In this document: in pieces, positions 232-62,440 of the stretch
How the letters are laid out: each line of letters begins with the position of its first letter
Position numbering within the stretch: position 1 is the stretch's first letter
Assembly (NCBI RefSeq): GCF_964355755.1
Contig: NC_092670.1
Coordinates: forward strand, 29,933,795-29,997,794
Direction: 5' to 3'
Length of the DNA: 64,000 nucleotides
DNA from: Antedon mediterranea
Lineage: Eukaryota > Echinodermata > Crinoidea > Comatulida > Antedonidae
Translations under genes and position numbers: made by a program
Notes under the pieces: generated by a model
Database searches by the model: none
Told to the model about the DNA's origin: nothing
What the model saw: only the letters and a program-made list of their open reading frames with translations

Positions 232-1270
232 ATTTCTTGTACACAACAACATTGCATTTATAGAAGATGGAGCGTTCAATGGAACTAATCTTTACTCTCT
301 GTAAGCAAATTTTATGTATTACTTAAACATATATTACGTTTGTTCTCCGTTGTCCAACTGTAACTCAAATAGGCACTATAATGTTTGTGTGGAATACTGT
401 ACGTGTATGCATGGATTTTCGTTTATTTTCCACTTCTCAAATGAATTCAAACAGTTTTAACATACCACTATCTTGTTGTCAATTAATCATCGACGCAGAT
501 ATGCCAATAGAACAATCAGACTGAGCATATGCTATCTACATGGATATGTTTTGTTGTCAAACAAGGCCAACAGCCATTAAGTCGCGTGCTACAATGCATA
601 GTGATACCGGACCGACAGACAAACAGACCGACAGACAGACAGACCGACAGACAGACGGACCGACCGACATAGTGAACTATACTGACCGAAATTACTGAAC
701 ATGTTTAAAAATGTTGAAATGTTTAAAAACATTTATATTTTTTTTAATTTACACGTGCGTAGCCTGTCACTTTTGACGTGCTCGTATAACGTAATTTCGA
801 GTTGGAAAGTAAGTCAAGAAAACAGAAATCGGGCAAGAAGAGTGCGCAATAACATTTAACGCGCAGTGCGCGCGCAAAAATCTGCGCACTCATGGCAATT
901 TTGTAAACGCTTAAAATTGCCTGAAACGTACTCTTATTTCATCGAAAATAAATTTTGAAAATTTTAAGCGCGCTTACGCATGCGTTACATGCGCTACGCA
1001 CGTAATTGTATTGCCATATGATGATTTATGCCCTGAAATTTATGAGTACCAAATTTTATTTAATTGTGATTCATGGTTGTTAAGATATGATTACAAACGT
1101 GATTTCGTTAAATCGTGCGTAGACCGCGTAATTTTTTATTGCGCACCGTGAAAACATAACCACATCGATTCCTGGCCATAAGGAATATTCTGTGAAAAAT
1201 TGACTTAGCTAGATTAAACTGATATCAAGATAAGGTCATAAAGCGATAAAACGCATAGTGATACCGGACC

Positions 1271-1301
<31 letters not shown>

Positions 1302-4300
1302 CGACAGACAGACAGACCGACAGACAGACCGACAGACAGACAAACAGACAGACCGACCGAACGACATAGTGAACTATAGAGTCGCTTCCACGCGACTAAA
1401 ACTATAACAGTTAATTCGCAACGTTCTATAGAGGGCAGCGTTTGAGACAAGAATTGTTGAGTTTCTCGACGTTTCGATCAATATGATTTGATCGTCCTCA
1501 GGAGTAAGAATGCAGAAAGTTCAGGAAATTTGGAATATAAGTGGAAAAGGGTGGGACTGGTGTGAAAGCCAGAAACAATAGCAAGTTCACAGAGTGGGAT
1601 GTATTGAAACTAGCTATAGAAGAGCATTGTTTCTCATGAACAATAGTGAATGGAAACTAGCTATAGCAGAGCATTGTTTCTGATAGGTTCTAAAAGCAAA
1701 GTGATACATGCTAAAAAGAATAGCATTGTCTCCAAGCTGGGTGTGGACTGGCCAAATATAGACCATGTGTCTAGACAGGATTGTGAAATGTACACTGGCC
1801 AGAAACTATGGCATTGTTTACTGTCGATGAAGATTCTTTTTGAATAAAGATAGCCAAATGTCACTGATCACATATCTTGATAAACAGTGTTGTGTTGTGT
1901 TTAGATGTCAATAGGTTCCCTGGTTCGTCTGGAATGCCAACAAGGAACGGAAGCAATTAGTTCAGCATCTTTCCAATTAACTCGGTGTTGTTGTTTGTGA
2001 GAATTTATAATTATTGATGATTTGTCTTGCTCTTCTGTCATGGCCTTGATATTCTTTGAGCCTGGTTTGAAGGTCACGTCCAGTTTCCACAATGCATACC
2101 TTTCCACATTCACATGGTATACAGTACACACTGGCTGTGTTTAGATGGGTTGTCCTTGTGTGTTTGAAGACACTGTGACAATTGTTTTTCTAACCTGCAG
2201 ATTCCTCTATGGTAATAACATTTCCAACATTACGTATAAAACATTGGAAACCAAAGACACAACATTGGAATACATGTGAGATTTTTGTTCTTTGATACTT
2301 TTTTAGCCTAGATAATATAAATACTCGATGATACGTACTTTCAATTTCATTTTAATCACAGTTTAATGATTCAAAGCAAGAAATTAAAATAACGAATACA
2401 GTTAATATTTTCCCCCAGATATCTATTTGACAATCCAATAAAAGAGATCGGAGAAAATGCTCTATCACATATGAAAGAAAATGGAACAGTGTATGTACAT
2501 TCGTATATTATTATATTTAGTTTTTAAGTCATAACAATTTACAAAAGATAATGATAATTTCAATATCACCACAATTGAACCGTCATCATCATCCTCGGTA
2601 TATTTATCAATTTTATTATCATCAATGATCGTCGCAACATTCTCATCAGCATCACCATTACACCATTACAATGTGTTAACAACGTGTTAACTATGCATTA
2701 ATCATGTTATTTTTATTTAGATATCTCAACTGTTGTGGACTGAAATCGATTCCTTCAAACATCGGGAAATTTATTAACATGTAAGTACACTTAAAATAAA
2801 AGATTTGATGTATTGATTTTATTTATATTTTTATGTTACCTTTATTTTTTTATATGTACAAGGTAAGGAGAAAGCTACTGATATCTGGCTATATAATATA
2901 ACAAATATCACCTTTTATATAAGATTTGAAAAAAATGATATTCTTCGCTTCGTGAAAAAGGTAGTCTTTCGAGAAAAATATGATTCCCTCGTGGATGTCA
3001 AATCTGATATTTCACCTCTAAGCAGGTAATATCTGTATAGTACTATACACACAGCCGATTCTGCTACTGTCAAGAGGTATCTATCTATAATATATGTACA
3101 GGATTTCTGCAAACAGCAACGTATATAACTTACTTTAGTTTTATAGATAGATACCTCTTGACAGTAGCAGAATCGGGTCCTACACAGAGTAGATATAATT
3201 GAATCAATATAATTGCATGTTGGGTAGAATTACAAACTAATTGTTTTTTCCTAGTGTTTGTGTTACAGAAGGTACAGAAATCGAAATAAATGGAATTGAA
3301 GAGGAGTTGTTTCGTTATATTGGTAGAGAAATTGGTTTGACATGTAATTCCACGACGAGTAAATGCAGTCCGTGTAAGGAAGGGACATACAGTTTGTATG
3401 ATAACACCAAATGTGGAAAATGCCCACCAGGTATGGTGCAATATTTATAAAATATAATAATCTCTCTAATTTAGTTATGGCAGTAAATAGTAATAATTAA
3501 TAGTAAAAGTATATAACAATAAAACAACTACAGGTACTTATAAATGAAAAAAAAATTACAGGTGGTTTCTATCAAGATAAACGAGGAGTAAATGAAAAGG
3601 GTGGTTACAAAGAATCCTGTCAACGATGTCCTGTTGGAAGTTTTTCAAATAATGCAGGAGCTGCGTCTATTGCCGGTTGTCAGACTTGTCCATCAGGAAC
3701 CAAAACCAATAATATTGCCAATCTAAATGCATGTTATTGCCTTGACAATTTCCATCGAACTGATCGATTTGGGCCATGCATGCCCTGCTCGGAGGGTATT
3801 AACTGTGAAGGAGGATATCAAAATCTAACAAAAGGTTACTGGTGGTCGTGGAACTTTAATGGTGACTGTAAAGTAGGCAAAGAACAAAATAAAAACAATT
3901 GTTTATTGGCTTACACAACATTTGTAACTAAATTAAAAAACGACATGTTTCCTATTACCAACCCAAATCAACTGAAAGATGCTGTATACAAAGGTCCGTT
4001 ACCAAAAGTATATGCTTGTCCACTAGGCAAAAAAAGTTGTAATATTGGACTAAAATTTAATGACACTTGTGTCGAAGGGTACACTGGTTGGCTTTGTGCT
4101 TCATGTGCAAATGGACATTATGAGCTCTTTAACGAATGTCACAAATGTAAAGGGACTGCTGTAACTGTAATTATATTTGTTGGTGTTGCCTTAGCAATAA
4201 TTGGAATGATTTTACTTATATGGAGAATGCAGGAAAGAAATGCGGATCAAAGACAAACCAGCCTAGATTCATTTGTTACCTATTTAAAAATTTCTATTAA

Positions 4301-5521
4301 TTTTTATCAGGTCTTAGGTATACTATCAGAAGTAACCGAAATTCATTGGCCTAAAAACTTTGAATATGCTGGCAAAATACTTCAATATTTTGACGTCATT
4401 AGATATATTAGTATGTTAAGTCCAAGATGTTTACACGACTCTTGGAATGCGTATTCCTCCCTTCATATTGCCATGGCTACACCACTAGTCATACTGTTAA
4501 CTATGTCTACCATTTACTTCATTTGCTACATCTGGAATAAGTGTCATGGAGCGATAACTGAGAGTTGCATACGTGATAGATGTATTGTTATATCCATGTT
4601 GCTCCTTTACCTTACATACGCAAATACATGTGCTGATATATTAGCAGTGGGGCCATGGTCAATTCGTGTATTTAACGTCACAGCAGACGGAAAGGTCAAT
4701 AAAACAGTACTAACGTCAGACTACTCAATTGATATGGACCAACATGGTGGATCTACATATCAAACTAACAAAACACTTGTTTACGTTGCTTTAATATACA
4801 TCATTGGTTTTCCATTGGCCATAGTTTTTATGATATACTATAAAAATGTACGTTTTGATCAACATGAAGAAAATCAGAGGAAAGGGTGGATGATTGGAGT
4901 AAGGTTCTTTTGTGGACAATACAAGCAAACATTTTGGTTTTGGGAATCTTTTGAGCTGTACAACAAGGCTCTGTTGGCACTCATTGCCAACTTAAAAGAT
5001 GACGTGTCCTCAAGTTTGTCTTACTCTCTATTTTTTACTGTCATATTTATTGTATTGCATTTGTACCTTCAACCAATGAAAGAGAAGTCAGAGCAGAGAT
5101 TCCAATTGTTGACTCTTGTCTTTATCGTTGTCAATCTATCTATTGGGGCGATCGTAAACTTGGATCAGAATTTTAATGAAGATGACGTAATTGATTTACT
5201 TCACAAGATAACTCCCGTTATCCTAATTATGCTGAACGTGTCTATCATGCTGGTGGTAACAGGTAAGATATCAATTTTATAATTTTTAAATACTGACTGT
5301 GTAAATATTGGCATATTAAACCACCATATTTTGTCAACAGCTTTATGAAAAATTGTAGTGTGTAATTAAATTTAAATTAATTTTTCTTATTCTTAGGTGA
5401 TTTTTTAAAGAAACTCAATAATAACTGCTGTCGCCGAGAGAGTGGTAGGGGTGTATTGCTTCTTCAAATCGACGATGACCCGGACGAATCACAGTTTGAA
5501 GAAAATAATATTATAATTTAG
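232..5521 (+). CDS. Gene A: LRR / GCC2-GCC3 / multi-pass membrane receptor-like protein, 3' part
   Basis: I assembled seven exons by eye: 232-300, 2201-2275, 2419-2490, 2721-2780, 3255-3430, 3562-5262, 5397-5521. All have AG acceptors and GT donors. The first three encode single leucine-rich repeats (motifs such as FLVHNNI and YLFDNPI) and the fourth a short 20-residue repeat. The next is a cysteine-rich stalk, the 1701-nt exon carries GCC2/GCC3-like cysteine repeats and about eight membrane segments, and the last is a 41-codon cytoplasmic tail. Intron phases are 2 for LRR exons and 1 around the stalk, and the frame stays open throughout. The signal peptide and first LRRs lie upstream of the window. 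The protein is probably a plasma-membrane receptor whose ligand is unknown. It is the first of four tandem paralogues. The exon model is solid; the function is inferred from architecture only. Confidence 0.85.
559..1397 (-). repeat. Dispersed repeat with CTGT/CGGT tracts, copy 1 (inverted)
   Basis: This is one of four copies of the same element in the window (others at 36955, 53439 and 62721). Reading on the minus strand it starts AGTCGCGTG and has CACGCGACT near its other end, a perfect 9-bp inverted repeat. All four copies then run on to a shared GGCCTTGTT. Inside each end sits a (CTGT/CGGT)n tract bordered by TTCACTATGTCGGTCGGT and GGTCCGGTATCACTATG. It lies in the first visible intron of gene A. 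Short open frames rich in SVCLSVG come from the tract and are not genes. Confidence 0.8.
1400..2150 (-). mobile_element. Penelope-like element remnant with GIY-YIG endonuclease fragment
   Basis: Read on the minus strand, 2143 down to about 1901 encodes a degraded GIY-YIG domain. It starts SVYCIPCECGKVCIVETGR, the signature of the Penelope-like element endonuclease. After a frame change near 2030 it continues HRVNWKDAEL, then TREPIDI, matching the usual end of that domain. Lower coordinates to about 1400 look like the eroded 3' end. Frameshifts and stops make it dead. It sits in an intron of gene A, opposite to the gene. Confidence 0.7.
3057..3174. repeat. Perfect 33-bp inverted repeat (small MITE-like hairpin)
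   Basis: The arms 3057-3089 and 3142-3174 are exact reverse complements separated by 52 nt, in the intron just upstream of the cysteine-rich exon of gene A. Related sequence (ACCTCTTGACAG, then CAGAATC) recurs near 40265. A similar CCGATTCTG-containing hairpin occurs at 17862-17910. This suggests a small family of inverted-repeat elements. Confidence 0.7.
3562..5262 (+). CDS. Gene A exon: GCC2/GCC3 cysteine repeats plus about eight membrane segments
   Basis: The exon opens with GGFYQD and cysteine pairs spaced as in GCC2/GCC3 (ephrin-receptor-like) repeats (CQRCPVGSF, CQTCPSGT). It continues with a GYWWSW motif and a closing GYTGWLCASC module. Hydrophobic stretches follow at about 4161-4225, 4280-4335 (weaker), 4455-4535, 4578-4650, 4774-4840, 5018-5070, 5107-5163 and 5207-5260. 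The combination of a GYxGxLCxxC module before a multi-pass region is also seen in large GCC-domain membrane proteins of protists. Here it is joined to an LRR ectodomain. The exon ends in a GT donor and splices in phase 1 to 5397. Confidence 0.85.
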
Positions 5522-5548
5522 CTTCATTAACATTATCGTATATATTTA

Positions 5549-5554: not shown

Positions 5555-5559
5555 TATAA

Positions 5560-8903: not shown

Positions 8904-9945
8904 ATGTCAGAAAGTGATTTTGACGAGGAATTTTTGGATAGCATGTCCATTGAGGTGGTAGCTCAGCTATCAGAGGAGCGTTTGCAACTCCTAGGTACTA
9001 GGGTTGGAGCATCTATAAATGATTCCATGAATAAATATGACTTGATAAATGTGATTGGAAGTCATGTTGGTTTAATTACTCATGAATCCGTAAAAAACTG
9101 CGGGGAATGAGGTCGAGTTGGCTAGAATCGAGTTGGAAGGTGAAAAATTAATTTTTGAAAGAAGAAAATAAGAGATTCTAGAGATGCAAACTCAAAGAGA
9201 GATGGAAAAAGAAAAACATGAATTTGAGTTAAGGAAATTAGAATTAGTTAACCAAATGGGTCTACACCTAATGATTCAGAGATTACTCAGAATATTAAAT
9301 GGGTTCCCAAGTTTAATGAGGATGAGGTAGAGACGTATTTTTTAGCTTTTGAGAAAATTGCTAATAGATTAAAGTGGCCTGCTAGACACTGGACTGTGTT
9401 GTTACAAACTGCTCTTGTGGGTAAAGCCCAAGAGGTATTTTCTGCATTGGCTGAAGATCAATGTGAGAACTATGATGCGGTCAAAACTGCTGTTTTGTCA
9501 GCTTATGAGTTAGTTCCAGAGGCGTATCGTCAGAAATTTAGGAACTTAGGTAAACCTTATGATCAAACGTTTACAGAATTTGCACGTAAGAAGCAGATTC
9601 TTTTTGATAGATGGTGTAGTTCGGAAGGAGTAAAGGGTGAATTTGGAAAGCTTCGTGAGCTTATGTTAGTTGAGGAGTTTAAATCTTGTTTCCCTACTGA
9701 AGTTCGTACACATCTAGAGGAGCAGAAAGTGGATAATTTAATGAAAGCGGCTTCTGTTGCCGATAATTATGTGCTCACGCACAAGGTGATGAATACCAAA
9801 TCGGTTTCAAAATCTGTTGATGATTCTAAGGTCCAAAGTCAGAAAACTACAGTTAATAGTAGTAGTAAATTTGTCAGAACTTGTTTTGTTTTTACTGCAA
9901 GAAAAAGGGTCATATAAAGGCAGATTGCTGGCTGTTTCAAAGCAA
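8904..9945 (+). pseudogene. gag: gag of the Gmr1-like element, broken
   Basis: A start at 8904 (MSESDFDEEF) opens a gag-like N-terminus. The frame is lost near 9105-9110; a coiled-coil, Glu/Lys-rich stretch follows in another frame to about 9270, and the capsid-like part continues in a third frame from about 9270 to 9880. A CCHC zinc knuckle (CFYCKKKGHIKADC) lies at 9887-9928 after a further frame change. Gag would form the particle and bind element RNA. At least three frame disruptions make it non-functional. Confidence 0.75.
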
Positions 9946-10099
9946 AGCTAAAGGGGATAATAAGAAACCCCAATCACTTCCAAACACGTTGGTTAATACA
10001 GTCCCGTTGAAAGTAACAGCGAGTCATGACGTTGATGAAAGTGAGAAGTTGATCCAATCTTCAGGTCCAGAAAAAGTGCGAAAGCTATTTAAGCATTTC

Positions 10100-11940
10100 C
10101 TCTCTACTGGTTCTGTAGCATTGATCAACGATGTGAATCTGAGTAAAGTTCGTGTCTTAAGAGACACAGGGGCATCACAATCCCTGATATTAGAATCTGC
10201 ATTGTCATTTTCGGACGAGTCTTCTGCTGGAGCAAGTGTGCTCATCCAAGGTGTTGAATGGGGTTGAAAGGAAGTCCCACTTCATGTAATTCGGATTGAA
10301 ACAGATATTGTAAGCGGAGATTTTGTTGTTGGTGTTGTTCCGAGTCTTCCAGTATGGGGTGTCACACTCCTTTTGGGGAATGATTTGGCCGGAGAAAGAG
10401 TGACAGTAGAACCGGTTGTGTGCAAGAGTCCTGTTGAAGACGAAAGCACGGTGTATTTAGAGAAAGAATTATCACATGTGTTTCCATCATGTGCGGTGAC
10501 GCGATCTATGGCAAATAAAACCATAGATGAGGATGAGAGTATTGACTTATGTGATAGGTTTTACGGAGAAATTACAGATCGCGTTTCCCAAGAGGCTGTC
10601 TGCTCAGGTCCCGAGTCACACACTGCCCAGGCTGAACAACAGCACCCAAAAGTGTGTGATTTCGGTCCGACAGTTCTCAATCGGTCCAGGTTAGTGGAAG
10701 AGCAGAGTAAAGATCCTGATTTGGTGTCATTTGGTCAGCAAGCTCTTTCTGTAGAGGAAATGTCTATTGTTCCTGTTTGTTATTTTATAAAGGATGGCAT
10801 AGGTAAGTGGAGGCCACCAGATATTCCAAGTAGTGAAGTTTGGAATGAGATTCACCAGATAGTTATTACTAGGGGATACCGTCAGGATATTATTGGTATT
10901 GCGCATGATGATCCTCTTTCAGGTAATTTAGGTGTCAATAAAACGGTAGACAAAATTCTCAGGCATTTCTTTTGGCCAGGTCTTAGAAAAGATGGGTCTA
11001 ACTATTGTAAATCCTGTCATGCGTGTCAGGTAGTGGGGAAGCCTAATCAAAAGGTTCCAGTAGCCCCACTTAAGCCTATTCCTACATTCGGTGAACCATT
11101 TTCAAGAGTTATTGTTGATTGTGTGGGACCATTACCACGTACTAAAAATGGAAATGAGTATCTATTAACAATAATGTGTGCATCAAGTAGGTTTCCAGAA
11201 GCGATTCCTCTTAGGCGTATTACAGCTAAGAATGTTGTTAAAGCATTGGTAAAATTTTTTACATGGGTAGGATTGCCTAAAACTGTTCAGTCCGATCAAG
11301 AATCAAACTTCATGTCAAAGATATTTAAACAAGTTTTAGAGCAGTTAGGTGTTGTCCATATAAGTTCAAGTGCTTACCATCCACAGTCTCAAGGGGCACT
11401 TGAGAGATTTCATCAGACACTTAAGAATATGATTAAAACCTATTGTTTTCAATGTGAAAAGGAATAGGATGAGGGAGTTCCCTTAATGTTATTTGCTGTT
11501 CGTGAAACAGTTCAAGAATCCTTAGGGTTTAGCCCATTTGAGTTGGTGTATGGTCATTCGGTCCGAGGCCCTCTTAAAATAGTCAAAGAAAGCCTGTTAG
11601 GGAATGCAGAAGAGTCTGTATCGATACTAGATTATGTGTTTGAATTTCGTGATCGATTAAATCGTGCTCGTGAGATGGCTAGAAAGAATCTTGTGAAGGC
11701 TCAGGGTAAAATGAAGAGATTGTTTGATAGGAAATCAGAAAATAGAAGCTTTAATTCAGGTGATGAAGTTTTAGTTATGTTGCCTCTTCCCAGTCAACCA
11801 TTATCTGCAGGATTTGCTGGTCCTTACAAAGTATTAGAAAGAGTAGGAGAAGTTGACTATGTGTTAGATACTCCAGACAGGCGTAACAAGAAGCGACTGT
11901 GTCATATAAAAATGTTGAAACCATACACAGCGAGAAATAA
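10100..11940 (+). pseudogene. pol: Protease and integrase region of pol, broken
   Basis: The protease active site DTG is at 10163-10171. A TGA stop at 10265-10267 breaks the frame, which then resumes unchanged. Integrase follows: an HHCC-type zinc domain (FFWPGL, then CKSCHACQ) near 10970-11030. The catalytic residues are D (11117-11119), D (11294-11296) and E (11402-11404), with 35 residues between the second and third as in the DDE family. A second stop (TAG, 11465-11467) interrupts the frame before the C-terminal domain, which ends near 11940. The integrase would insert element cDNA into the host genome. Confidence 0.85.
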
Positions 11941-11999
11941 TAGTGATACCTGTACGTCAACACCAGTTACGTTTGTTGTTGAAGAGAATTCTGAAGAGT

Positions 12000-14760: not shown

Positions 14761-15689
14761 ATGACCTAAAAAGAAATTCAATGTTTTCGTAAAACTAAAA
14801 ATTATTACTTATTATAATTATTAAAAAAAAATATTGAGAACAAACTCACTGCTCGTTTTATCTCTGTACTAAACCATACTATTCTCAAATTAAAAATGAC
14901 AAATACAGCCAAACTGATGATGATTTGTTTGTTTGTTTTTTTAGATTTGTATCGCATAATCATATACATGTCATTGAACCTTTCACTTTTGTAAACTGCA
15001 CCGAACTGTCAGAGCAGTAGGTTTTCTTAAAAATACAATAACTCATTGACTAATTGATTTAGTAGATCAACATAACTTAATTTGATGAGATAAATGTTTA
15101 AGATAATATGTTCCCTGATCACTATACATGTTAGAAAGTGCATGCAAAAAATGAGACCACAAATTAAACTTAGCCCCCTCCTATGTCCTAGTCAGGTTTA
15201 AAATTACTATGACTGAATGTAATACTCAACATATATTTCTATCACTTTTTGATTTTCAGGGATATTAGATTTAATAAAGAACACCAAGAGCTTATTGAAA
15301 ATACATTTGCATTTAAATCAAGTTTTTCCGTTAAATTGTAAGTAAAAAGAATAATATGGCATCTCGTTTTTTTGTTAGGTTGTGAGTAACTCTAAAATAT
15401 AAGGGTATTATAATGATATAGACCACACATACTTATCTAACAATATCTACATTTTATTCCTTGGAAATTTAAAATATACGGTAATGCCATTGATTTAGAA
15501 TATTTTACATATATAATACATTTTGCAAAACATAATTCTGCATCATTACGCAAATGAAAACAATGATATCTATTTTTATGACCTAATTTATACTCATCTT
15601 TGAATAGGATTATTGGATATAACGTCCAAGTAATATCAACTGAAACATTTAAAAATGTATCAGATGGAAGCTACCTGTGAGTAAATATT

Positions 15690-15890
15690 TATGCTAGATT
15701 GTAGTCGGTAGGTGTGTATGTGTGTTAGATTGTAGTGGATTGGTGTGTATGTGTCGTGCTATAGATTGTATTGGGTTGGTGTGTATGTGTGTAGTGTTAG
15801 ATTTTAGTGTGTGGGTTGGTGTGTATGTTTGTCGTGTTAGATTGTAGTGGGTTGGTATGTATGTGTGTCGTGTCGCTATATTAATTAAAT
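15690..15890. repeat. Minisatellite, GT-rich, about 40-bp units
   Basis: Imperfect units of the form GATTGTAGTGGGTTGG followed by TGTGTATGTGTG repeat about five times, inside an intron of gene B. Confidence 0.7.
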
Positions 15891-29320: not shown

Positions 29321-29323
29321 TAG

Positions 29324-49500: not shown

Positions 49501-52500
49501 CGCCCTCTACGGCGAATAAGTAACTGGCTTTTACGAACGATATCCATACCAAAATATTGTGAAAAAATGAAGTAGGTCAAGTGTTATAACGTTTTTACAT
49601 TTTTTAGGTTAATGTCATTTAAGCAGTTATAACATAATATATGACGTCACAACGACCTTATGACGTCATAGGTACGTCATATGATAATTAAATTATCCTA
49701 CACATTTATAACTACTCGTAATGCACTTACAGTATGTGGTCTATAAGTAAAACCGTTAAGGAGATAATATACAAGACTTCAAAATGGTAAGTGGCGGCCA
49801 TTTAACCCACTTCCCGATGTCCGATGTTGGTAAACATTGGATATGATGTTAATTTGGACAATATCAACGAGGCAAAACAAAAAGAAATTCTGTTGCAATT
49901 TGTTGTAGGTGCAACCATACTTTTACTGGACTATGGTAAAATACTATTTTAACTTGCTATGTTAAAGATATAATTGTCCCCCTAAAAAATAATTTTTTGT
50001 TGTTGAATATGCCATTTTAATATAACATAATAGTTATTCACTATGACCAAAAACTTGATCCAAAAAAAAAACCATTTTCCACCAAAAAAATGTAATTTAA
50101 AGCAAAATATACCTAAATTGTCTGGAAGACAATGGTTTTTGGTTGAAATTAACCATTTCTTTTGTCTTTTTATAAGTGAAATAATTATTTTTGATGATTT
50201 TTTTTTATACAGAAGTGAATAACTTTATTAAAACTGTGAAATTTCCTATTCAAAATCTGATTATATTAATCTTTATTTTTTCATGTTTTTTTGGGGACAA
50301 TACATCTTTAATTAAAAGTCAAGTTATAAGCCAAAATACGTTTAAAATGATGGCGGCCATCTTGGATTTCAACATGGCGGCTGGAATAAAATATTTACAA
50401 CTTTAATAACAATTATTATTTGGAATCTTCACTATCACAAACATAGGTATAGACACCATTTTTAACTTGCTACGTCACTTAAAAGTAAAGTTATAAGCCA
50501 AAATAAGTCTGAAATGGCGGCCATTTTGTTTTTCACGTTTTAAGGGTGAAGATCTAAAAATTGAGCAGGGTAAACACATGTTTTTTTACTTTTAACAAAA
50601 AATGTCTACAGCATTTCATTTTTCTCAAATCTGGACGGACTAGTCTATAATTGAATTTGAATAAGGAACTCGGAACTAGTAACCAACTTAACATACATCA
50701 TGAAATCAGCCTTTAATCTTCATTAACAACTATTGTTAGCCTTATTAATGTACGATCATGTTATACAGTGTATAAAATAACGCAAGGACGTACTTTAATC
50801 AGACTCAGATCAAACGTTTCATATCTTTTGCCGACCAAACCCATAATGTTACAAAATAAGGTGGCATCCAACATGTACGCCAACTAAAAACACATCACAT
50901 GCATCTACTTTTAAAACGTCGTAGTCAACTGGCAAGCTAATCGTCGCCCAGGGACTGCGGTTTGGGTTCAATTTGGCTCGTGATTAGTTGTGATTTAAAT
51001 GACCTATCAACCAATTTTTAAATCAAGAACTCTTAATTTTCTGTCGTCCGATTTTGATGAAATTAACAACATAACTAATTTTGACTACCAATTTACAATA
51101 CCCTCTAACATTCATCATTGTCTTATTTAGATATCTTAACTGTGGTGAACTTCGATCCATTCCTACTAATATTGGCAAACCTATTAACAAGTATGTACCA
51201 TTTATATAGTTACAAACAAAAATAAGTGAACATGTAACTAATTATACAATGTAAATAGACCACCAGCTGTCTTGAATTTGACTGAGATTGTTTAATATTT
51301 GTATATATATATATAATTACTGTTTTTGCCTGATTTGTGTGTATATATATATATATATATATAAATCATACTGTAAATTATAGAAACAGTGCTCATATTC
51401 GGAACATGATCTCATAATCGCGTCGAGCATAACTCATTGGCGAAAGTTCCGTATTTTTTAGTTGTATGAAAAAATGTCTCTGGCGGGATTCGAACCTGCA
51501 ACCTCTCGCTTACAGGGCGAGTTTCATACCCATTAGACCACAGAGCCATGTGTGGTATTATCACAGATTTTCACCCACCAGATACATTCTCTCATACAAC
51601 AAACGCCCTTTACACACAGTGCTACGCAACATCATTGATTTACATATACACAATATTATTTAAAAAAGCCGTTGCGAATTAAAGTTGGAATTTATTCTGA
51701 CTTGTTAAACCTCCACTGATTGTGAGGGCGTTTGTTGTATGAGAGAATGTATCTGGTGGGTGAAAATCTGATTATGTTGATATATGACCAAGATTCAATA
51801 ATCAATATTATTGCTGCAGGGTCCTATTATGGGAACACAACATGAGAGGGGTAAAAAATGTATTTAATAATGTGAAAAGTCACACGGATAAAAGTTGTTG
51901 GACATCGTTCACATACAATGTTAAAATATAAATGACAGCAAATCTATCTTGAAAGTTGGCCAAGACAGAGCCCCGAGTGAACACTCAAAAATATTGTTAT
52001 TCATGTTAAGAGCCAAACGGCTAATTCATTTTGCATTGTAACTGTTACACGTTGGGATGGCATGCACACAAATATTATTGGCTGCAATTTTATCCTTTAA
52101 GTTGTCCCAGACAGTAGCCCAAAAATGCCCGTTGAGTCCTACAAGATTAATCATATGAAGGGCCACGGCCAATTCCTTTTTGATTGGAACTGTTACGTCT
52201 TGTCATATACGAAAATACTCATGACAGCAACTTTATTTTGTAAGTTGGCCCGGAAAGTAGCCCAAAAATGCCCGTTGGGCCCTACAAGAGAGTTACACTG
52301 ATATTCCCCTTGAAATATACGAACGTATTCACGAAAGCACCTTTATCCTGTAAGTTTCCCCAGACACTAGCTCAAAATTTTCGGATAACATTGCATTGAA
52401 ACCATTACAGTACACCATTTCTCTCTAGGATTTAATCATTTGAAGAGTTACAGGGATAGGATAAACTTTTATGATCGCAAAACCTACCTCACACCAACCC

Positions 52501-55500
52501 GCCCGTCTAATTTAAGCTTTTTCAAAATAAAAAAAACAACTTTAAAAACGTATTCAAAATTCAAAATGATTTTCACGTTAGTAGGCCTACTAGTAAAATT
52601 ATTGATTTATTGATAATTCCGTTTCAAGTTAACACCTATTTTAAAAATTCTATACAAATACAATATTTGGTACGGTACATTACAACAAAAACTACTTTTC
52701 CTACCAAAATTTCAATTACAGGTATAGCATAGTATAGGTTAAAACTGTAATATTACTGCTTGGTTTCACAATCTATTATTTGTAATGTGTGTAGGCTGTT
52801 TCTATTCATTTACGTTTTTTTTTTATTGTAAAATCTTTCTGTTATTACATAATTCTGTACTATAAGGCCAAATAATAACATAGGCTACAGTATAAATAAT
52901 TAAGGTTAGGCGAAAACACTTATGTCTTAATTATCACTAATCATCATCGTCCTCATATACACTCTCAGTGTCACCACTCTATGGCTGGCTATCATAGTAA
53001 ATATCGTCTATTTCACTATCTTTTGGAATATCTGTATCTGAATCATACGACTACGTTACTTTATTCGTTTTCGTTCCTTCAAACCAACCAGCCACATAAT
53101 GACCATCGCCATCGTCAAGACATCCAAAATTCAGCGGATGCAGATGTTTTGTTGGTTATGGGGTGTTTGTTAGCCTTCATATCCACCCTAGATATATACT
53201 TTTCCCGTAAAATATGTTGATCAAGTGTTTTGCTGCATGATTGTAAAGATGACCAGTTATTTTCTTTCCCTGGACATTCCTCTTCTTACCCTTTGTCATG
53301 TTATTAATTTAATAATGTTACCTTACCTCATTTATGCCATGTAACTGTTTGAACTGGAATATGTATGCAGTGATTTATTTTATCAAATACTTCATCACTA
53401 CCAAGTAATCTTAACGCACAATAAGTTTTGATATTTTTAGTCGCGTGGACGCGACTCTATAGTTCACTATGTCGGTCGGTTGGTCGGTCTGTCTGTCTGT
53501 CTGTCTGTCGGTCTGTCTGTCTGTCTGTCTGTCGGTCCGGTATCACTATGCGTTTTATCGCTTTCTGACCTTATCTTGATATCAGTTTAATCTAGCTAAG
53601 TAATATTTTCACAGAATATTCCTTATGGCCAGGTGGTTATGTTTTCACGGTGCGCAATAAAAAATTACGCGGTCTACGCACGATTTAACGAAATCACGTT
53701 TGTAATCATATCTTAACAACCATGAATCACAATTAAATAAAATTTGGTACTCATAAATTGCAGGGCATAAATCATCATATGGCAATACAATTACGTGCGT
53801 AGCGCATGTAACGCATGCGTACGCGCGCTTAAAATTTTCAAAAAATGTTATTTCGCACTCTTTTGGCCCGATTTCTGTTTTCTTGACTTACTTTTCAACT
53901 CGAAATTACGTTATACGAGCACGTCAAAAGTGACAGGCTACGCACGTGTAAATTAAAAAAATATAAATGTTTTTAAACATTTCAACATTTTTAAACATGT
54001 TCAGTAATTTCGGTCAGTATAGTTCACTATGTCGGTCGGTCTGTCTGTCGGTCTGTCGGTCTGTCGGTCTGTCTTTCGGTCTGTCGGTCTGTCTGTCGGT
54101 CCGGTATCACTATGCATTGTGCACGCGACTTAATGGCTGTTGGCCTTGTTTTTCTAAATAGGTGAATAGCATTGACTTTACTTTTCTTTAAAAAGCAGAC
54201 TTGAAATCGCATATCGTTGTCGTGGTATATTTGTAACGTTGATGATTAGCTTTCGACTGTTAGCTGAACCGTAATCCATTCCAATATTCGACGTTTCTGG
54301 CATTCTATGGGAGAAACCTGCCGGTACAACAAGTCTGTGTCAGATGAGCACCGTACAACAATTTTCCCTCCAATAACGTCAAAAGTGTGTCTGCTCCTTC
54401 ATGGCAGTTTTAAGTTCGGCAGGCTTCAAGTTTAACCACCAAATTACGATTTATTGTGATACATTTACCACCATGTGAAACAAATAGGTCTTGTCACCTA
54501 TTATTGGACCATAGTGATCATTCTGGACATCGTTTATAAGAAACTGTGCCAGATCTTCCTTACAATTTTCTCTAATTTTATCTAATAGATCTATTACTTT
54601 CTGTTGTTGAACTGTTCTATTGTTAATTTAATTTAATTCTTTAATATTTTGATATCTTTGATATATGGTTCTATATATTTTTCCAAGAGCAGGTGAAGAT
54701 AATTTTCACTGACGAAACATACCAATCATTGTATCTACAACACTTTTCCCATAGACACATAGACTTCCTTTAAACACAGCCATACTCTGTTTAAGTGAGA
54801 CTCAAACCAACGACGGAATGCACTCTCTGAGATGGCTCTTTGTGTGATTAAATCTTGTAGGCATTATTTGGCTATTGTCTAGACCAACTTACAAGATAAT
54901 GTTGTTGTCATGAGTATTTTCGTTTTTTCCCCCAAAGCGTAACAGTTTCAATAGAAAGGGAATTGCCAGTGAAGCCATTCGTGTGATTAACGCTTGTAGG
55001 GTCTAACGAGATTTGTTTGGCTACTGTCTGGGACTAATGTCTGGACTTAGGCTACAAGATAAAGTTGCTGTTATGAGTATTTTGTATTTCTCAAGGCGTA
55101 GCAGTTCCGATAAAAAGGAAATTGGCCGTGTGGTTTTCGTGTGATTAAATCACATGTTCGATATTCATTAAGTCAATATGGATCATGATGGTGATGTTTA
55201 TATACCCACAACTAATTTTTTTTTTGCTAGTGTTTGTGTTACAAAAGATTCAGAGATCGATATAAATATTGGAATGTTATTGAAGTTTATCGCTAGAGGA
55301 ACTGGATTGTCATGTAATCCCACAACCGAAAAGTGCAGTCCTTGTAAGGAAGGGACATACAAGATATGTAATAAGTATAAGTATAAATGTCATATGTGTC
55401 CTCCAGGTAACTTACAAGTGTAAATTATTCTTTGTTTATTTCATTTCTTCAAATATTTAACAATAACGAAAAAATTATAGACGTAAACAAATTTGTTTCG

Positions 55501-58114
55501 TTGTTTATGGCTTTTTTCAAATGAAAATTGGTAAAATTATGAATAATCTTAAAATAAAATGTATTTTATTGTATTTTTTTTATTGTAATTTTTATTAATT
55601 AACAACATTATATGAGTCTGTCTAAGTTTTCAAATGAGTAATTGTTTTGACAGTATGCCTAATTGATCTTATAATTCTTTTTTATTTTACGGTTTGAATA
55701 ATTCCTAGTCTAGTTCCTATCGATCTTCATACAGACATCTGTATCTTAAACTCATATGTTGTTGAATAACTGCATTGTAACCATAGATCGGGATCGAATA
55801 TGAACAAATTAAATAAATTGAAATTTGACCTTCCTATGATTCATTAATTTCTAAACGTATTGTTTATCTAAAGCTTGGTTCTCACTAGGACGCAACGCAA
55901 GGACGTAGACGTAACGTGAGTGAGTTGACCAATCATAAGCGATGGATTATGCGAACTGTCGCTTGTCGTTGGTCAACACGCTTGCATTGCGTTTACGTCC
56001 TTGCGTTGCGTCCTAGTGAGAACCAAGCTTAAGTGAATGATATGATATTTATTATTATATGTATTATAAAAAAATACAATAAATAACATATCAATGACAA
56101 TATGAATTACCTAATTACTTTTGTATGTGTATTGTATCATATTATTTTGAAACTTATTTCGTGGAGTTGTTCGGTTTAATATTGATTTCTTACAGGCGGC
56201 TTCTATCAAGATCGAAGAGGAGTTATTGAAAGGCATAATTACACAGAAACATGTAAAGCATGTCCTATTGGAAGTTTCTCTAATCATGCAGGAGCAGCGT
56301 CTATTGCGGATTGTCATTCGTGTCCATCTGGAACCAATACCAGTAAAAATGCTAGTCTAAATGCTTGTTACTGTCTCGAAAATTTTCATCGAACTGATCG
56401 ATATGGACCGTGCATAGCTTGCCCAAAGGGTGTTACCTGTAAAGGAGGGTATTTGAATTTAACACAGGGTTACTGGTGGTCTTGGGATTTTTCCGGTAAT
56501 TGTGGAGTAGACGATGATTGTTTATCGGCTTACAAAACATTTATAATTAATTTGCAAAACGACAATTTCCCTATTGACGATCCAAATAAACTAAAAGACC
56601 ATACATATAAAGGTCCAATACCACAAATACATATGTGTCCACTAGGAAATAAGAGTTGTAACATTGGATTAGAATTAAATGACACTTGTGCCAAAGGGTA
56701 CACTGGTTGGCTTTGTGCGGCATGTTCAAAAGGATACTATCAGTTATTTAACGCATGTCATAAATGTCAGGAGCCTGTTGTGACTGCAATCATATTTATT
56801 GGTATTATGTTGGTAATAGTTGGAGTCATTTACCTTGTTTGGGGAATTCAACTAAGGAATACAGGTCAGCGACAATCCAAACTTGATTCATTTGTGGTAT
56901 ATTTGAAAATTGCTATTAATTTCTATCAAGTTTTGGGTATATTATCAGAAGTAACCGAAATTCATTGGCCTAAAAACTTTGAGTTTGCTGGTACAATCCT
57001 TGAGTATTTTGACGTTATAAAATACATTAGTATGTTAAGCCCGAGATGCTTACTCGGATCTTGGAATGTATATTCTTCACTTCACATGGCTATGGCCACA
57101 CCACTAGTCATAGTGATAGCTATGTTTACCATTTACTGTATGTGTAATATCTGGTACAACTGTCATGGAGTAATGACTAAGCGCAGGATTATTGACAAAT
57201 GCATCGTTATATCAATGTTGCTTTTTTACCTTACGTATGCGAATATGTGTGCCCACGTCATGGCGGTGGGGCCATGGTCAATTCGTTCATTTATAGTTAC
57301 AGAAGACGGTATAGTCAGTAAAGCAGTACTAACATCAGACTATTCGATTGATCTGGATGCAAATAATGGATCTACGTATCAAACTAACAAAATACTTGTT
57401 TACGTTGCGTTGATATACATCATTGGCTTTCCATTGACAGTAGTTCTTATGCTATACTGGAAACGTTATAATCAGCCTGTAGACAACCACGATAAAGGGT
57501 GGATGATTGATGTGAATTTTTTTTGTGGACAATACAAGAACAGATATTGGTTTTGGGAATCATTTGAATTGTATAATAAGGCTCTACTGGCACTCATTGC
57601 AAATCTGAGAGACGACGTGTCCTCAAGCATGTCATACTCTCTGTTTTTTACTGTCATCTTGATTGTATTGCATTTGTACCTTCAACCAATGAAAGAGAAG
57701 TCAGAGCAGAGATTCCAATTATTGACACTTGTTTTTATCGTTGTCAATCTATCCATTGGGGCAATCGTAAATCTAGATCAGAATTTTAATGAAGATGCCG
57801 TCATTGGTTTGCTTCACAAGATCACCCCTGTCATTCTAATTATGTTGAATGTGTCTATCATGCTGGTCGTAATTGGTAAGATATTAATTATAAAATGCTC
57901 AAATACTGACATATGTAAATATAGGCATATCAAACCGCCAGATTCGGTAAACTGCTTTATGAAAAGTAGGCCTACATTTATTTTTTTTCTCATTTTAGTT
58001 GATTTTTTAAAGAAACTTAAAACAGACTGCTGTCGCCGAGAGAGGGGTGTACTGCTTCTTCGAATTGATGATGACCCGGAGGAATCACATATTGAGGAAA
58101 ATAATATTATATAG
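31575..58114 (+). CDS. Gene C: full-length LRR / GCC2-GCC3 / multi-pass receptor-like gene with one nonsense codon
   Basis: Nineteen exons: 31575-31780, 32398-32469, 32657-32716, 35335-35403, 35943-36014, 36169-36243, 38434-38511, 38829-38903, 39225-39293, 39561-39632, 40003-40068, 40620-40754, 41090-41158, 47786-47860, 47985-48056, 51131-51190, 55231-55406, 56196-57875, 57999-58114. They sum to 3297 nt, exactly 1099 codons. Exon 1 gives a signal peptide (MVKMMSHKYLVIVIFYLWV) and LRR N-terminal cap (CECTARTVNC). Fifteen LRR exons follow, then cysteine-rich stalk, membrane exon and acidic tail. The exception is TAA at 40714-40716 in the 135-nt exon, which would cut the product to 336 residues unless that exon is skipped (frame kept, 1053 residues). 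It is probably a cell-surface recognition receptor, or a recent pseudogene. Confidence 0.85.
32717..35334. other. Gene C intron, no other gene seen
   Basis: The sequence is AT-rich. A short minus-strand frame around 33000-33180 (FNNGNTDRNVQPERL) looks like the 3' end of an old retroelement but is too short to place. Confidence 0.4.
36955..37611 (+). repeat. Dispersed repeat with CGGT tract, copy 2
   Basis: It starts AGTCGCGTG, carries a short CGGT/TGGT tract, and has CACGCGACT at 37580-37588 before a shared GGCCTTGTT. It is the shortest copy; its second tract is reduced to a few bases. It lies in an intron of gene C. Confidence 0.75.
37680..38110 (-). mobile_element. Degenerate LINE reverse transcriptase fragment
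   Basis: On the minus strand the translation gives DDLKLHRVVGSDNDA (about 38070) and, in another frame, DLGIYIDIKLTFCKHI and FKGNKMLEFIWRHC (about 37900-37780). This is the usual order after the catalytic site of non-LTR reverse transcriptases. Frame changes show it is dead. It sits in the gene C intron between 36243 and 38434. Confidence 0.7.
40620..40754 (+). CDS. Gene C double-LRR exon with in-frame TAA
   Basis: This is the only 135-nt exon, carrying two repeats (DLSWNYI and LMNKNNI). Its phase is fixed by both neighbours and by the gene B equivalent at 19482-19616. Where gene B reads CGC ATC TCA, gene C reads CGT GTC TAA, so the change is one base (TCA to TAA) at 40714-40716. Splice sites are intact. 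Both borders are phase 2. Confidence 0.85.
41974..44568. mobile_element. TAA-flanked inverted-repeat element, PIF/Harbinger-like, copy 1
   Basis: The ends AGGCTGGTTTCCTGTCGACG and its reverse complement (44549-44568) are exact terminal inverted repeats. TAA sits on both sides (41971-41973 and 44569-44571), the duplication size and sequence typical of PIF/Harbinger elements. The insertion is inside element E copy 1 and itself carries part of another E copy (42698-43890). No transposase was seen. Confidence 0.7.
42698..43890. mobile_element. Element E, copy 2, rearranged
   Basis: Its start repeats the E left end (TTTACGTAAGGGC, GGTAAATCGCGC) and continues parallel to copy 1 to about 43130. From about 43450 to 43890 it matches E in the opposite orientation (compare 45300-44850), so part has been inverted or E is palindromic. 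Confidence 0.55.
45770..46180. other. Gene C intron spacer, no feature seen
   Basis: AT-rich sequence with no repeat partner or coding frame that I can support. Confidence 0.4.
46421..46790 (+). mobile_element. tRNA-derived SINE (tRNA-Glu-like head)
   Basis: The head carries an A box (TTGGTGTAATGGTTAAG) and a B box (GGTTCAAATTCC, about 46470-46481) with a CTC at the anticodon position. A T-run and a body with TTGATCTTTGACCCTGACCC follow. The region ends CCTTGGCGGAGGT near 46787, whose complement-like ACCTCCGCCT occurs at about 46299, so the SINE may lie inside a small inverted-repeat element. Confidence 0.6.
46900..47490 (-). mobile_element. Element E, copy 3 (inverted)
   Basis: This is a reverse-complement match to 42700-43110 and 44574-44830: GCTGTTCAACCGG, AAAAACAATTATCGTAGG, GGAAAACACCCCTATTTG and ACGCGCGATTT occur in the expected order. 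The left end is at about 47318. Confidence 0.65.
48143..50713. mobile_element. TAA-flanked inverted-repeat element, copy 2, interrupted
   Basis: The left end (TGCTGGTTATCAGTCGACGT) and the body to 49060 match copy 1 at 41974 (shared TCCCGAAAGTT, TTGTTACGAAAGTTGA, TTCAAGTC). The right end GAAATCAGCCTT is displaced to about 50702-50713 by a nested element. TAA flanks the left end, and TTTAA follows the right. It lies in the gene C intron between 48056 and 51131. Confidence 0.6.
49061..50698. mobile_element. Nested 1.6 kb inverted-repeat transposon
   Basis: The left end ATGTCTGTGAAGTTGGTTAC is mirrored by the right end, whose complement reads ATGTATGTTAAGTTGGTTAC. The arms extend through TAGTTCC and TTATTCAAATTCAATTA. 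GAAAT occurs just outside each end (about 49054 and 50702), a candidate target duplication. The interior has repeated CTTGACCTACTT and TGGCGGCCAT words and no convincing gene. Confidence 0.65.
51475..51547 (-). tRNA. tRNA-Thr(UGU)-like sequence, probably pseudogene or SINE head
   Basis: The 73-nt minus-strand sequence folds as a cloverleaf: acceptor GGCTCTG with one mismatch, and anticodon stem CTCGC/GCGAG. The seven-base loop is CCTGTAA with anticodon TGT. The T arm is GCAGG TTCGAAT CCCGC with one mismatch. The usual U33 is replaced by C and the D arm is weak. The internal promoter boxes are good. An inverted repeat starts 17 bp away, so it may belong to a mobile element. Confidence 0.5.
51564..51770. 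repeat. Perfect 45-bp inverted repeat next to the tRNA-like sequence
   Basis: The arms 51564-51608 and 51726-51770 are exact reverse complements (outer words CAGATTTTCACCCACC and GGTGGGTGAAAATCTG) separated by 117 nt. Confidence 0.85.
52937..53299 (-). pseudogene. Degenerate minus-strand ORF inside the composite element
   Basis: From ATG at 53299 one frame gives MTKGKKRNVQGKKITGHLYN and, after several stops, an acidic end (DSDTDIPKDSEIDDIYYD, then a DDDD stop). The sustained amino-acid character in one frame despite stops indicates a decayed coding sequence. I do not recognise the family. Confidence 0.4.
53439..54150 (+). repeat. Dispersed repeat with CTGT/CGGT tracts, copy 3
   Basis: It starts AGTCGCGTG; CACGCGACT is at 54122-54130, followed by the shared end TGGCTGTTGGCCTTGTT. 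Both tract regions are present. Part of the centre is missing compared with copy 4. Confidence 0.8.
54470..54840 (-). pseudogene. Degenerate minus-strand coding remnant, unrecognised
   Basis: Read on the minus strand, one frame gives GKSVVDTMIGMFRQ (about 54750), then VQQQKVIDLLDKIREN, then FLINDVQNDHYGP (about 54530) with scattered stops. Upstream, another frame gives SESAFRRWFESHL. It is probably the eroded product of the surrounding element. Confidence 0.4.
55231..55406 (+). CDS. Gene C cysteine-rich stalk exon
   Basis: The 176-nt exon equals gene A 3255-3430 in length and phase (2 in, 1 out). It reads VCVTKDSEIDI, then LSCNPTTEKCSPCKEGTY, ending CPPG at the GT donor. It joins the last LRR to the GCC2/GCC3 repeats. 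Confidence 0.85.
55872..56029. mobile_element. 158-bp MITE with TAA target duplication
   Basis: The terminal inverted repeats are at least 30 nt long (AGCTTGGTTCTCACTAGGAC and its complement at the far end). TAA lies directly outside each end (55869-55871 and 56030-56032). It sits in the short intron before the membrane exon of gene C. TAA duplication suggests a PIF/Harbinger-type mobiliser. Confidence 0.85.
56196..57875 (+). CDS. Gene C exon: GCC2/GCC3 repeats plus about eight membrane segments
   Basis: It has the same layout as gene A 3562-5262: GGFYQD, cysteine repeats, GYWWSW, GYTGWLCAAC, then the membrane region. Strictly shared stretches include NFYQVLGILSEVTEIHWPKN and SLFFTV. It is 21 nt shorter than the gene A exon, mainly near the sequence after GNC and in the loop after the fifth segment. 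It contains no stop. Confidence 0.88.
57999..58114 (+). CDS. Gene C last exon, acidic cytoplasmic tail
   Basis: It encodes DFLKKLKTDCCRRE, a leucine stretch, DDDPEESH and the C-terminal EENNII. Gene A ends with the same pattern, and gene B's displaced exon keeps an acidic end. The 123-nt intron before it is open in frame, so its retention would also give a product with 41 extra residues. Confidence 0.85.
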
Positions 58115-58417: not shown

Positions 58418-58429
58418 GTGGTGTGGTAA

Positions 58430-60570: not shown

Positions 60571-60577
60571 AAGCTCC

Positions 60578-60586
60578 TATAAAAAA
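60578..60586 (+). promoter_or_regulatory. TATA box candidate for gene D
   Basis: TATAAAAAA lies 61 bp before the first possible ATG and 103 bp before the second. The arrangement is similar to gene C. Confidence 0.5.
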
Positions 60587-60638
60587 GGCACTATTTGATA
60601 ACTTAGGTTACCGTGATAAAGAACCACCTTACACTGAT

Positions 60639-62440
60639 ATGGCATACTGTCGCGTTATTTACTCTGCACCGACTTTCAAAATGTTGTTTTATAATTTCTT
60701 GGTAATTTTCCCGTTGTGTTTATTGGTGGTGGATTCAACGATTTATGTTGATAAAGTTGCTTGCAGTACCAATACCAGTGTGAAAGCAGTTTGTGAATGT
60801 ACAGCAAGAACAGTGAATTGTGCAAACCTAGGACTTACCGAATGGCCAGTTGGAATTCCAAAAAACACGCTGGTTCTGTAAGTCCTTCTTCTCCTTTTAA
60901 TCTCAACAGACCACTAGAAGTGCGAATTCCTTAATAAGAATTTAACTCACCTAATAAATATTATAGTTTTTGGAAATGTTAGAATGTAAAAATATAATCA
61001 AATCGAGTATAATACCCCACTTATATATAATCTAGTTGGGGTTATACATTACGCTTTTGGCTTATTTTGTGTTTTAGTTACAAGTTGTTTGTAACATTAT
61101 AATTCATTTATAGCGACATGAGCAATAACAACCTTGAGAAGATTGAAGAAGATGAACTGCTAGAAATACAGGGACTTCTTACAATGTAAGGTTTTAAACT
61201 ATGTTAAATAAAATACTGAATGTTGAAATTGAAAATAATTTTGGTTTGGAAAATTTACTATTTTATTTAAAGATCAATAGAATGCCAGTCAAATGAAAAT
61301 AATTCCTTATTAAGCAAATAAAAGTCAAGTATGCCATTCCAATTGGGTTTGGCCACGGGCAGTTTATAGACGTCACACACTCAAACACTCACCAGCCTCC
61401 TATTCTTAAAAAGTTGAACATGAAATATGACCATTTTTATTTTTTATTTTATGTCTTTAGGCAATGTGGCAAAGGATTACCAATAGTAAATGTATCACTG
61501 TCCTATCAGAGAGGTGGTAACCCCCCTGATACAGGGGCTATTTTGTGAACCAGTTCACCGGTGTATCTCCCTATCCATCTCGAATACTGAGTTCTTTAAA
61601 GTGTACACATGTTATAACTGTGTACACTGGACCTAAGGTTTATAGTCCTTTTCTGAGAAGACTTGTTCCTCCACCAGAGCGAGTCGGCCTCAAACCCTTG
61701 TCGATGTTGTTGGCTGTTTAGGTACAGTAAACGGCTCCCCTGCCTTAACCGCTCGGCCATTTGACTATGGAAACCATTACATTTTTTTCCATGTAGTACA
61801 GTAAAACCAATATTGAACAACATTAACATATATTTATATTACGGTGTAAAGTAACTAAACATTCAAGGCATTGCTAATAGAATAATAAAAAATCAATAAA
61901 TCAAAAAGTAACAATTAGTAAACAAAGCCTACGATTATTAGGACCGCATTAAGTCTCCATAATATCTGTGCCGGGTTCTATGAAAATGTATGATTGCACA
62001 GTTATTTTTTATTACACACGAAATGTAACTGTTTACCTTTTCTAAACTGTACTTTTTTTTTATTTGAAAAAAGATGAATAAGATGTTTTTTTTTTTTAAT
62101 ATTGTTTTTGACCTAAGTTGTAGGTCTGGTCAGTGTAGGTCTTGATTTTGAAAATTAAAATCAAGCGAGCTTTTGCCCTTTTGCTCTACGCGGGGTTTCC
62201 GTCCTCGTTCAGCTCGCATTAGGACACCTGAGTTACCATTTGACAGATGTACAATGTCAGTAGCTGACTGGTGGGATTGGTTATTAGAAGCAACAAAGAA
62301 CCAATATACTGATATAAAATTCTTTTTCCATTTAGAAGTTTAAACAATAATATACTGTATTCTTATTGCTTCAATTTCAGAAACTTTAGTCACAATTTAC
62401 TTACTAGATTACCAGCGTTTCCGCATAAAATCATCAAAAT
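60639..62440 (+). CDS. Gene D: fourth LRR receptor paralogue, 5' part
   Basis: The exons seen are 60639-60877, 61114-61185 and 62381-62440, matching gene C exons 1-3 in order, length pattern and phase 2. Exon 1 carries a signal peptide and the LRR N-terminal cap (CECTARTVNCANLGL, WPVGIP). Two starts are possible: 60639, or 60681 (MLFYNFLVIFPLCLLVV). The second looks more like a normal signal peptide and aligns better with gene C. The gene continues past the window end. No damage is visible in these exons. Confidence 0.85.
61490..61770 (-). mobile_element. tRNA-derived SINE, minus strand
   Basis: The head, read on the minus strand, has an A box (TGGCCGAGCGGTTAAGGC, 61759-61742) typical of Leu/Ser tRNAs and a B-box-like GGGTTTGAGGCC (61697-61686). 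The body down to 61490 is shared with 59222-59390. It lies in an intron of gene D. Confidence 0.65.

Follow-up and report, generated by a model that had tools for sequence, protein, structure and literature searches.

Gene organization at the locus

Contig C1 (NC_092670.1) in the genome assembly of the crinoid Antedon mediterranea (354 Mb, 18 contigs) carries a tandem array of genes encoding receptor-like proteins, in which a leucine-rich repeat (LRR) ectodomain and a cysteine-rich stalk are joined to a multi-pass membrane unit. The window, i.e. the whole stretch of DNA that was analysed, comprises 64,000 nucleotides (C1:29933795-29997794) and contains four copies of one gene on the + strand (A, B, C and D), arranged head-to-tail with collinear exons. 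This bears out the four paralogues of a preliminary description of this DNA. Collinearity was assessed by tblastn, with the gene C frames as query and, as target, the window extended by 22 kb downstream and later also by 20 kb upstream. The array continues past D in the same direction, at 30.05, 30.09, 30.13 and 30.16 Mb of C1, the first two of these copies being broken.

The gene begins with a signal peptide and an LRR N-cap and continues with 15 LRR exons, a cysteine stalk, a multi-pass exon and, last, a short exon for the acidic tail. Within the stalk a first CxxC unit is followed by an Ephrin_rec_like/GCC2_GCC3 region and then by DUF7630. Of the common parts named in the preliminary description, the LRRs, the stalk, the GYWWSW and GYTGWLC motifs (both found in the window copies) and the tail (RGVLLLxIDDDPxES in copies A and C) could be confirmed, but the N-cap stays under its Pfam cut-off and was located in a minority of copies (see below).

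The spliced model of gene C extends from 31575 to 58114 and comprises 19 exons and 1098 codons. All 18 introns are GT-AG and phase-consistent (phase 2 for the LRR exons, phase 1 at the stalk/membrane and membrane/tail borders), so that, one stop aside, a single reading frame runs from the LRR exons through the stalk and membrane exons to the tail. A scan for the pattern AG-[LRR exon of 60-81 nt]-GT yields 13 matches with 12 distinct starts in gene C, at least one of which is probably false, against a mean of 0.6 over 20 base shuffles and none on the opposite strand. A model with the gene C tail as part of the membrane exon, where the frame is open, was rejected: the tail is regarded as a separate exon because copy A has a GT-AG intron at that point and several genomic copies show the tail as a piece of its own. 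Positions in the following are those of the window unless a contig is named.

Gene C
31575-31780, +: exon 1, signal peptide (by eye) and LRR N-cap
32398-51190, +: exons 2-16, one LRR each, 60-78 nt, phase 2, splice-consistent
40620-40754, +: exon 12, 135 nt, a double repeat
40714-40716, +: in-frame TAA in exon 12
55231-55406, +: stalk exon
56196-57875, +: exon with Ephrin_rec_like, GYWWSW and DUF7630 (GYTGWLC), then about nine predicted transmembrane helices
57999-58114, +: acidic tail exon, with stop

Copy A starts 5' of the window. A further seven of its exons sit 1.7-8.2 kb before the window start; a search of the 20 kb preceding the window did not reveal exons 1-5, which encode the N-cap and LRRs 1-4. 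Copy B is a truncated pseudogene. Exons 1-5 of the gene are absent from it, a frameshift disrupts its stalk exon, and a deletion has removed about 417 residues of its membrane exon (jump from about residue 71 to 488). The earlier statement that one copy is decayed was overstated, as B is broken and the gene C model also has an in-frame TAA. Gene D runs beyond the window to about window position 84,630 and is open for 1060 codons, through the end of its membrane exon; a simple motif search detected no tail exon in the 9.6 kb 3' of that exon.

Copy A
232-2780, +: LRR exons at 232-300, 2201-2275, 2419-2490 and 2721-2780, splice-consistent
3255-3441, +: stalk exon (first CxxC...CPPG unit), by homology to the C and D stalk exons, both ends approximate
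3562-5262, +: cysteine/DUF7630/membrane exon, open; start set by comparison with gene C, end by the GT donor
5397-5521, +: acidic tail exon (GDFLKKL ... RGVLLLQIDDDPDESQFEENNIII, stop)

Copy B
14945-21838, +: 11 LRR exons, two of the 11 without good splice borders
22095-22914, +: frameshifted stalk remnant and deleted membrane exon
29311-29427, +: tail-like exon with a weak match to the tail of gene C (E 0.009), perhaps left behind by copy B

Gene D
60681-60877, +: exon 1, signal peptide (by eye) and LRR N-cap
61114-62440, +: exons 2-3 (LRR)
C1:30016720-30018450, +: membrane exon, downstream of the window

Domain composition

The profile check proposed in the preliminary description was carried out on gene D. 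LRR_8 (123.2 bits, cut-off 27) and Ephrin_rec_like (23.2 bits, cut-off 23.1) pass, but LRRNT, the profile of the N-cap, remains at 22.5 bits, under its cut-off of 25.8. Gene D can be counted among the LRR-ectodomain receptors in general, with LRR_8 accompanied by a signal peptide judged by eye and an LRRNT match below threshold. LRR_5 (58.4 bits) and LRR_4 (45.9 bits) also match, and DUF7630 passes with 27.9 bits (cut-off 27). Gene C reaches 31.1 bits for DUF7630 and 24.5-25.1 bits for Ephrin_rec_like, and copy A is under both cut-offs (26.5 vs 27 and 17.5 vs 23.1 bits).

For comparisons across the family we used an alignment (A1) of 15 of 18 membrane exons, with three near-identical copies from contig C10 and gene D left out. 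At E up to 1, DUF7630 (PF24633) is matched by all 15 members and Ephrin_rec_like (PF07699) by 13 of them. None of the 24 Pfam families hit by the 15 members at this threshold accounts for the membrane part; matches outside the cysteine part are weak and scattered (DUF6297, E 0.0076, one member; DUF3185, E 0.008, one member; Wzy_C_2, E 0.04, four members). Single-sequence and profile searches of the Protein Data Bank (PDB) sequences returned nothing for the membrane part and weak rows only for the cysteine part (E 0.19 and worse, one of them 'EIF1'). The membrane region therefore has no match to a well-described family in Pfam or among PDB sequences; such a match would have overturned the preliminary description. 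The PKD_channel, TRP and Ion_trans families are not listed for the 15 members, at the level of profiles, which remote homology may escape. No Pfam match to TIR (gene C tail included) or to a tyrosine kinase was obtained for the family proteins tested, and the protein P0002 had no match in NCBIfam. Relatives of the A1 profile were not found in viral contigs or in bacterial and archaeal genome contigs. The DNA pattern for W[YF]WEVVE occurs in four stretches of the viral contigs, all of them discarded, with no frame appearing by eye to be a relative.

Membrane unit and predicted topology

Hydropathy across the alignment displays eight peaks. Compared with the about eight passes of the preliminary description, nine membrane helices with the N-terminus outside and the C-terminus inside probably fit the loop charges better. 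The ninth helix suggested here is the WFWESFELYNKALLALIANL segment, which has no hydropathy peak of its own; it is by counting this segment that the loop charges come to fit the N-out/C-in orientation. Both low-confidence AlphaFold models draw a helix at this segment (WFWExxELxxKALLALI), with a mean pLDDT (predicted local distance difference test) of 38.9 for the single sequence and 38.3 for the two-row alignment of the membrane part, too poor for use.

Seven charged or polar residues are invariant in the 15 aligned members (K238, Q245, E455, E458, K462, H493, N518), and K238, E455, E458, K462 and H493 lie inside predicted helices. Further invariant residues in or near helices are Y244, P303, T347, Y348, C352, G411-P413, W452 and W454. 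Neither a DRY nor an NPxxY motif was noticed in the family alignment by eye.

The family across the genome

A protein search of the genome returned 57 matching pieces, all genome counts being lower bounds. In 19 of the loci concerned the membrane exon is complete: contig C1 has seven of these and C10 has four, C2, C5 and C7 have two apiece, and C3 and C4 a single one. About 10 further loci are decayed fragments, so that the paralogue count asked for in the preliminary description can now be given. Loci outside the window are named by their contig in the following, C7a and C7b being the two on C7. The membrane exon is free of stops in 19/19 complete loci. DUF7630 reaches or exceeds its cut-off at 21 genomic places, 21/21 of them within family matches. 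With the divergent membrane part of C4 as query and a threshold as lenient as E 10, 51 matches from 34 scored candidates were obtained, every one at a locus of the family.

C3 and C4 are the most divergent loci, the identity of their membrane parts being 28 and 33%. Both of them, too, combine LRR exons with a stalk exon and a single membrane exon. The LRR-exon scan gives 14 matches with 11 distinct starts at C3 (shuffled mean 0.2, opposite strand 1) and 9 matches at C4 (shuffled mean 0.0, opposite strand 0); locus C2 likewise gives 9 (shuffled mean 0.1, opposite strand 0). Since the scans are positive at C3 and C4, the ectodomain plan is common to the most divergent members of the family.

A tree built from the 19 membrane exons joins copy A with the four C10 copies (support 99/100) and one C1 copy with one C7 copy (100/98), hence recent duplicates are located on different chromosomes. 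C3 and C4 form long branches of unsure placement.

Three fragment loci on C10 (13732366-13734287, 13821987-13823901 and 13908271-13910190) display the same arrangement of membrane-exon pieces, as would result from two duplications of a single broken copy.

Evolutionary rates

The ratio of nonsynonymous to synonymous substitution rates (dN/dS) was estimated for two recent pairs, A/C10 and C7a/C7b (dS about 0.08-0.11), from exons present in both partners: 6 LRR exons for A/C10 and 10 for C7a/C7b, plus the stalk exon, with stop codons skipped. For A/C10, LRRs and stalk together give 0.82 (210 codons) vs 0.25 for the cysteine/membrane exon (568 codons); for C7a/C7b the values are 0.77 (294 codons) vs 0.36 (569 codons). 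This contrast recurs in 1995/2000 and 1947/2000 bootstrap replicates, respectively, and dN is higher in the ectodomain in 2000/2000 replicates of both pairs. A finer split yields 0.80 (LRRs), 0.84 (first stalk exon) and 0.26 (membrane part) for A/C10, and 0.67, 1.03 and 0.57 for C7a/C7b. Considering both parts of the membrane exon in five pairs, dN/dS is 0.18-0.36 in nine of the ten region comparisons, the tenth being the 0.57 just mentioned.

Within the LRRs, differences at the scaffold positions 2, 5, 7 and 10 amount to 3/72, vs 54/326 elsewhere, in a count made by hand in which the register of the double exon is approximate and one of the 54 is the C7b stop. The fast turnover ascribed to the tandem family in the preliminary description thus holds, with, in the pairs tested, a higher evolutionary rate in the ectodomain than in the membrane unit. 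At the level of sequence this pattern fits recognition genes, and relaxed constraint is equally compatible with it.

Interpretation and alternative explanations

The receptor family to which the array belongs is real; it has expanded in this lineage and evolves by birth and death. What we observe directly is the order of the domains, the structure of the exons, the number of copies, their decay and, in the two recent pairs, a constraint that differs between ectodomain and membrane unit. From the sequences we favour, with moderate confidence, the reading that these are lineage-expanded cell-surface recognition receptors, in which the LRR arm would bind and the nine-helix unit would signal.

We infer topology, ligand binding and signalling as follows. 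The LRR solenoid (about 16 repeats) would bind a ligand that differs between copies, and the cysteine stalk (first CxxC unit, Ephrin_rec_like, DUF7630) would couple the solenoid to the conserved nine-helix unit. This unit, with its N-terminus outside and its C-terminus inside, may relay the signal into the cell through polar residues that are conserved and buried, together with the short acidic tail. New copies would be born by tandem and inter-chromosomal duplication and lost by deletion or nonsense mutation. Judging by analogy from the evolutionary pattern, immune or other non-self or chemical recognition appears the most likely use.

Several observations weigh against the proposal of functional recognition receptors. 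The N-cap exon was located in three of the seven copies looked at (C, D and C7b), in a survey that covered the C10 and C7a copies only partly; none was found for A within 20 kb upstream or in B. Gene C contains one premature in-frame stop (the TAA in exon 12), and C7b has a premature stop as well; with these stops and a broken B, part of the speed of the ectodomain may be decay. The ectodomain dN/dS estimates are below 1 (95% intervals 0.45-1.83 and 0.45-1.41), hence relaxed constraint explains them as well as positive selection does. LRRs and membrane part are close in the C7 pair (0.67 vs 0.57), and older pairs indicate purifying selection in every region, the LRRs included (LRR 0.31-0.36, membrane part 0.18-0.20). 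The predicted topology is drawn from hydropathy and charge, both AlphaFold models being unusable.

The membrane unit may, alternatively, be a divergent seven-transmembrane (7TM) receptor akin to G-protein-coupled receptors (GPCRs), with an ectodomain in the style of the LGR receptors, two extra or misjudged hydrophobic segments and G-protein signalling. Among PDB sequences the LRR part is indeed matched best by LGR4 (E 4.6e-28), a GPCR with an LRR ectodomain, and Ephrin_rec_like has been reported in glutamate-type GPCRs of animal relatives, though not of animals, in the accessible part of that report (PMC12716839). However, the LGR4 match is unspecific: at E up to 0.001 the LRR part hits 236 different chain sequences, and among the 60 listed many are other LRR proteins. 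No 7TM profile is found among the 24 Pfam families of the 15 members, 7tm_1 (LGR/rhodopsin GPCR) included, nor among the PDB sequences; 7tm_2, 7tm_3, Frizzled and GAIN/GPS are absent from the Pfam matches of the members and of genes C and D. This agrees with the preliminary description, which had set the region apart from rhodopsin-type GPCRs. The eight hydropathy peaks together with the WFWExxELxxKALLALI segment suggest nine helices rather than seven. We therefore regard a 7TM receptor as unlikely.

A largely relict family of old receptors on the way to losing their function, in which the ectodomains are under relaxed constraint and many copies are dead, would account for the premature stops in C and C7b, the broken B and the about 10 decayed loci, and the ectodomain dN/dS of 0.77-0.82 is compatible with relaxation. 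On the other hand, the membrane exon is uninterrupted in 19 loci and under constraint in nine of ten region comparisons, the LRR scaffold positions are spared and gene D is open over 1060 codons, which makes such general decay quite improbable. An LRR-gated channel or transporter, whose nine-helix unit would conduct or carry a solute while the ectodomain gates or anchors, draws on invariant charged and polar residues within predicted helices that would be unusual in a plain anchor, but no animal channel profile matched, the TctB rows are weak (E 0.79-0.93) and far under the cut-off, and no pore motif can be named, so that we consider it similarly improbable.

Returning to recognition receptors with a signalling membrane unit, a more far-reaching version is offered tentatively and seems rather doubtful to us: the nine-helix unit may be an unnamed eukaryotic signalling module, neither a GPCR nor a known channel, that was fused to LRRs in this animal lineage and expanded as a diversifying recognition system in parallel to the Toll-like receptors. 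Should the membrane unit prove to be an independent signalling module, it would represent an animal recognition system outside the familiar GPCR, Toll-like and kinase receptors, and its sequence offers a short list of invariant, putatively buried residues for testing. Because the rates of arm and membrane unit differ in the pairs tested, ligand choice and transduction are separately testable. Even as an ordinary LRR variant, the family comprises about 20 copies with recent pairs across several chromosomes.

Repeats and mobile elements around the copies

The intergenic and intronic DNA of the array holds several repeats. Between A and B, 9252-13440 (+) contains frames resembling a long terminal repeat (LTR) retrotransposon, with the integrase (H2C2, rve) before reverse transcriptase and RNase H; a gag-like frame of this element matches the SCAN domain with 49.9 bits. 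The integrase-first order recalls the Gmr1 group of Gypsy elements, which we take to be the proposed source of SCAN. Further features are given below.

25042-25767, -: zf-RVT match (31.9 bits), remnant of the long interspersed nuclear element (LINE) type, between the B membrane remnant and the tail-like exon at 29311
26209-26921: tandem array, 305-base unit, 2.4 copies, 94% matches, 146-base sub-period
63704-63996: 21-base tandem repeat, about 14 copies, reaching the window end
about 36905-37540, 53430-54150, 62710-63570 and about 70570-71340 (downstream): dispersed GTCTGTC-rich repeat between exons of genes C and D

Comparison with known receptor systems

Toll-like receptors are expanded in some invertebrates and share with the Antedon family an LRR ectodomain with a cap. 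In contrast, the Antedon family is multi-pass instead of single-pass and has no TIR match. The LGR receptors (LGR4-6 and relatives) likewise present a large LRR ectodomain on a multi-pass unit, with LGR4 as the top PDB match of the LRR part discussed above, and LGR genes, too, put one LRR per phase-2 exon. They differ from the Antedon family, which is without the rhodopsin-type 7TM profile and has an extra cysteine stalk. Protist multi-pass proteins with EGF/GCC stalks presumably carry motifs like those of locus C4 ('WyWEvvE..rK', 'L..DysI.C', 'Y.iGiPl').

In the literature searched, whose coverage leaves most subscription papers outside, an animal family combining LRRs, GCC and a multi-pass unit is not described among the matches listed, and DUF7630 is not mentioned. 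The novelty claimed for the architecture in the preliminary description may apply to the multi-pass combination, but not to its parts: the pairing of LRRs with GCC2_GCC3 is already known from the receptor ApLRRTK, and the juxtamembrane module already has a Pfam model, DUF7630. A study on Eph evolution places the origin of Ephrin_rec_like in ancient eukaryotes; LRRNT and LRR_8 appear by name in the legend of one of its figures (PMC6993872). The glutamate-type GPCRs in which Ephrin_rec_like is reported belong to choanoflagellates and other animal relatives; the accessible text mentions no LRRs for them (PMC12716839), and the Antedon family has no class C 7TM profile.

Judged from the accessible parts of its report, the closest described design is ApLRRTK of Aplysia californica, with a signal peptide, LRRs (eight or nine, both being stated), GCC2_GCC3, one membrane pass and a tyrosine kinase (PMC4200351). 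Signal peptide, LRRs and the GCC2_GCC3 (Ephrin_rec_like) region are found in both; the difference begins at the membrane, where the single pass and intracellular kinase of ApLRRTK stand against DUF7630, a multi-pass unit and a short acidic tail with no kinase match in Antedon.

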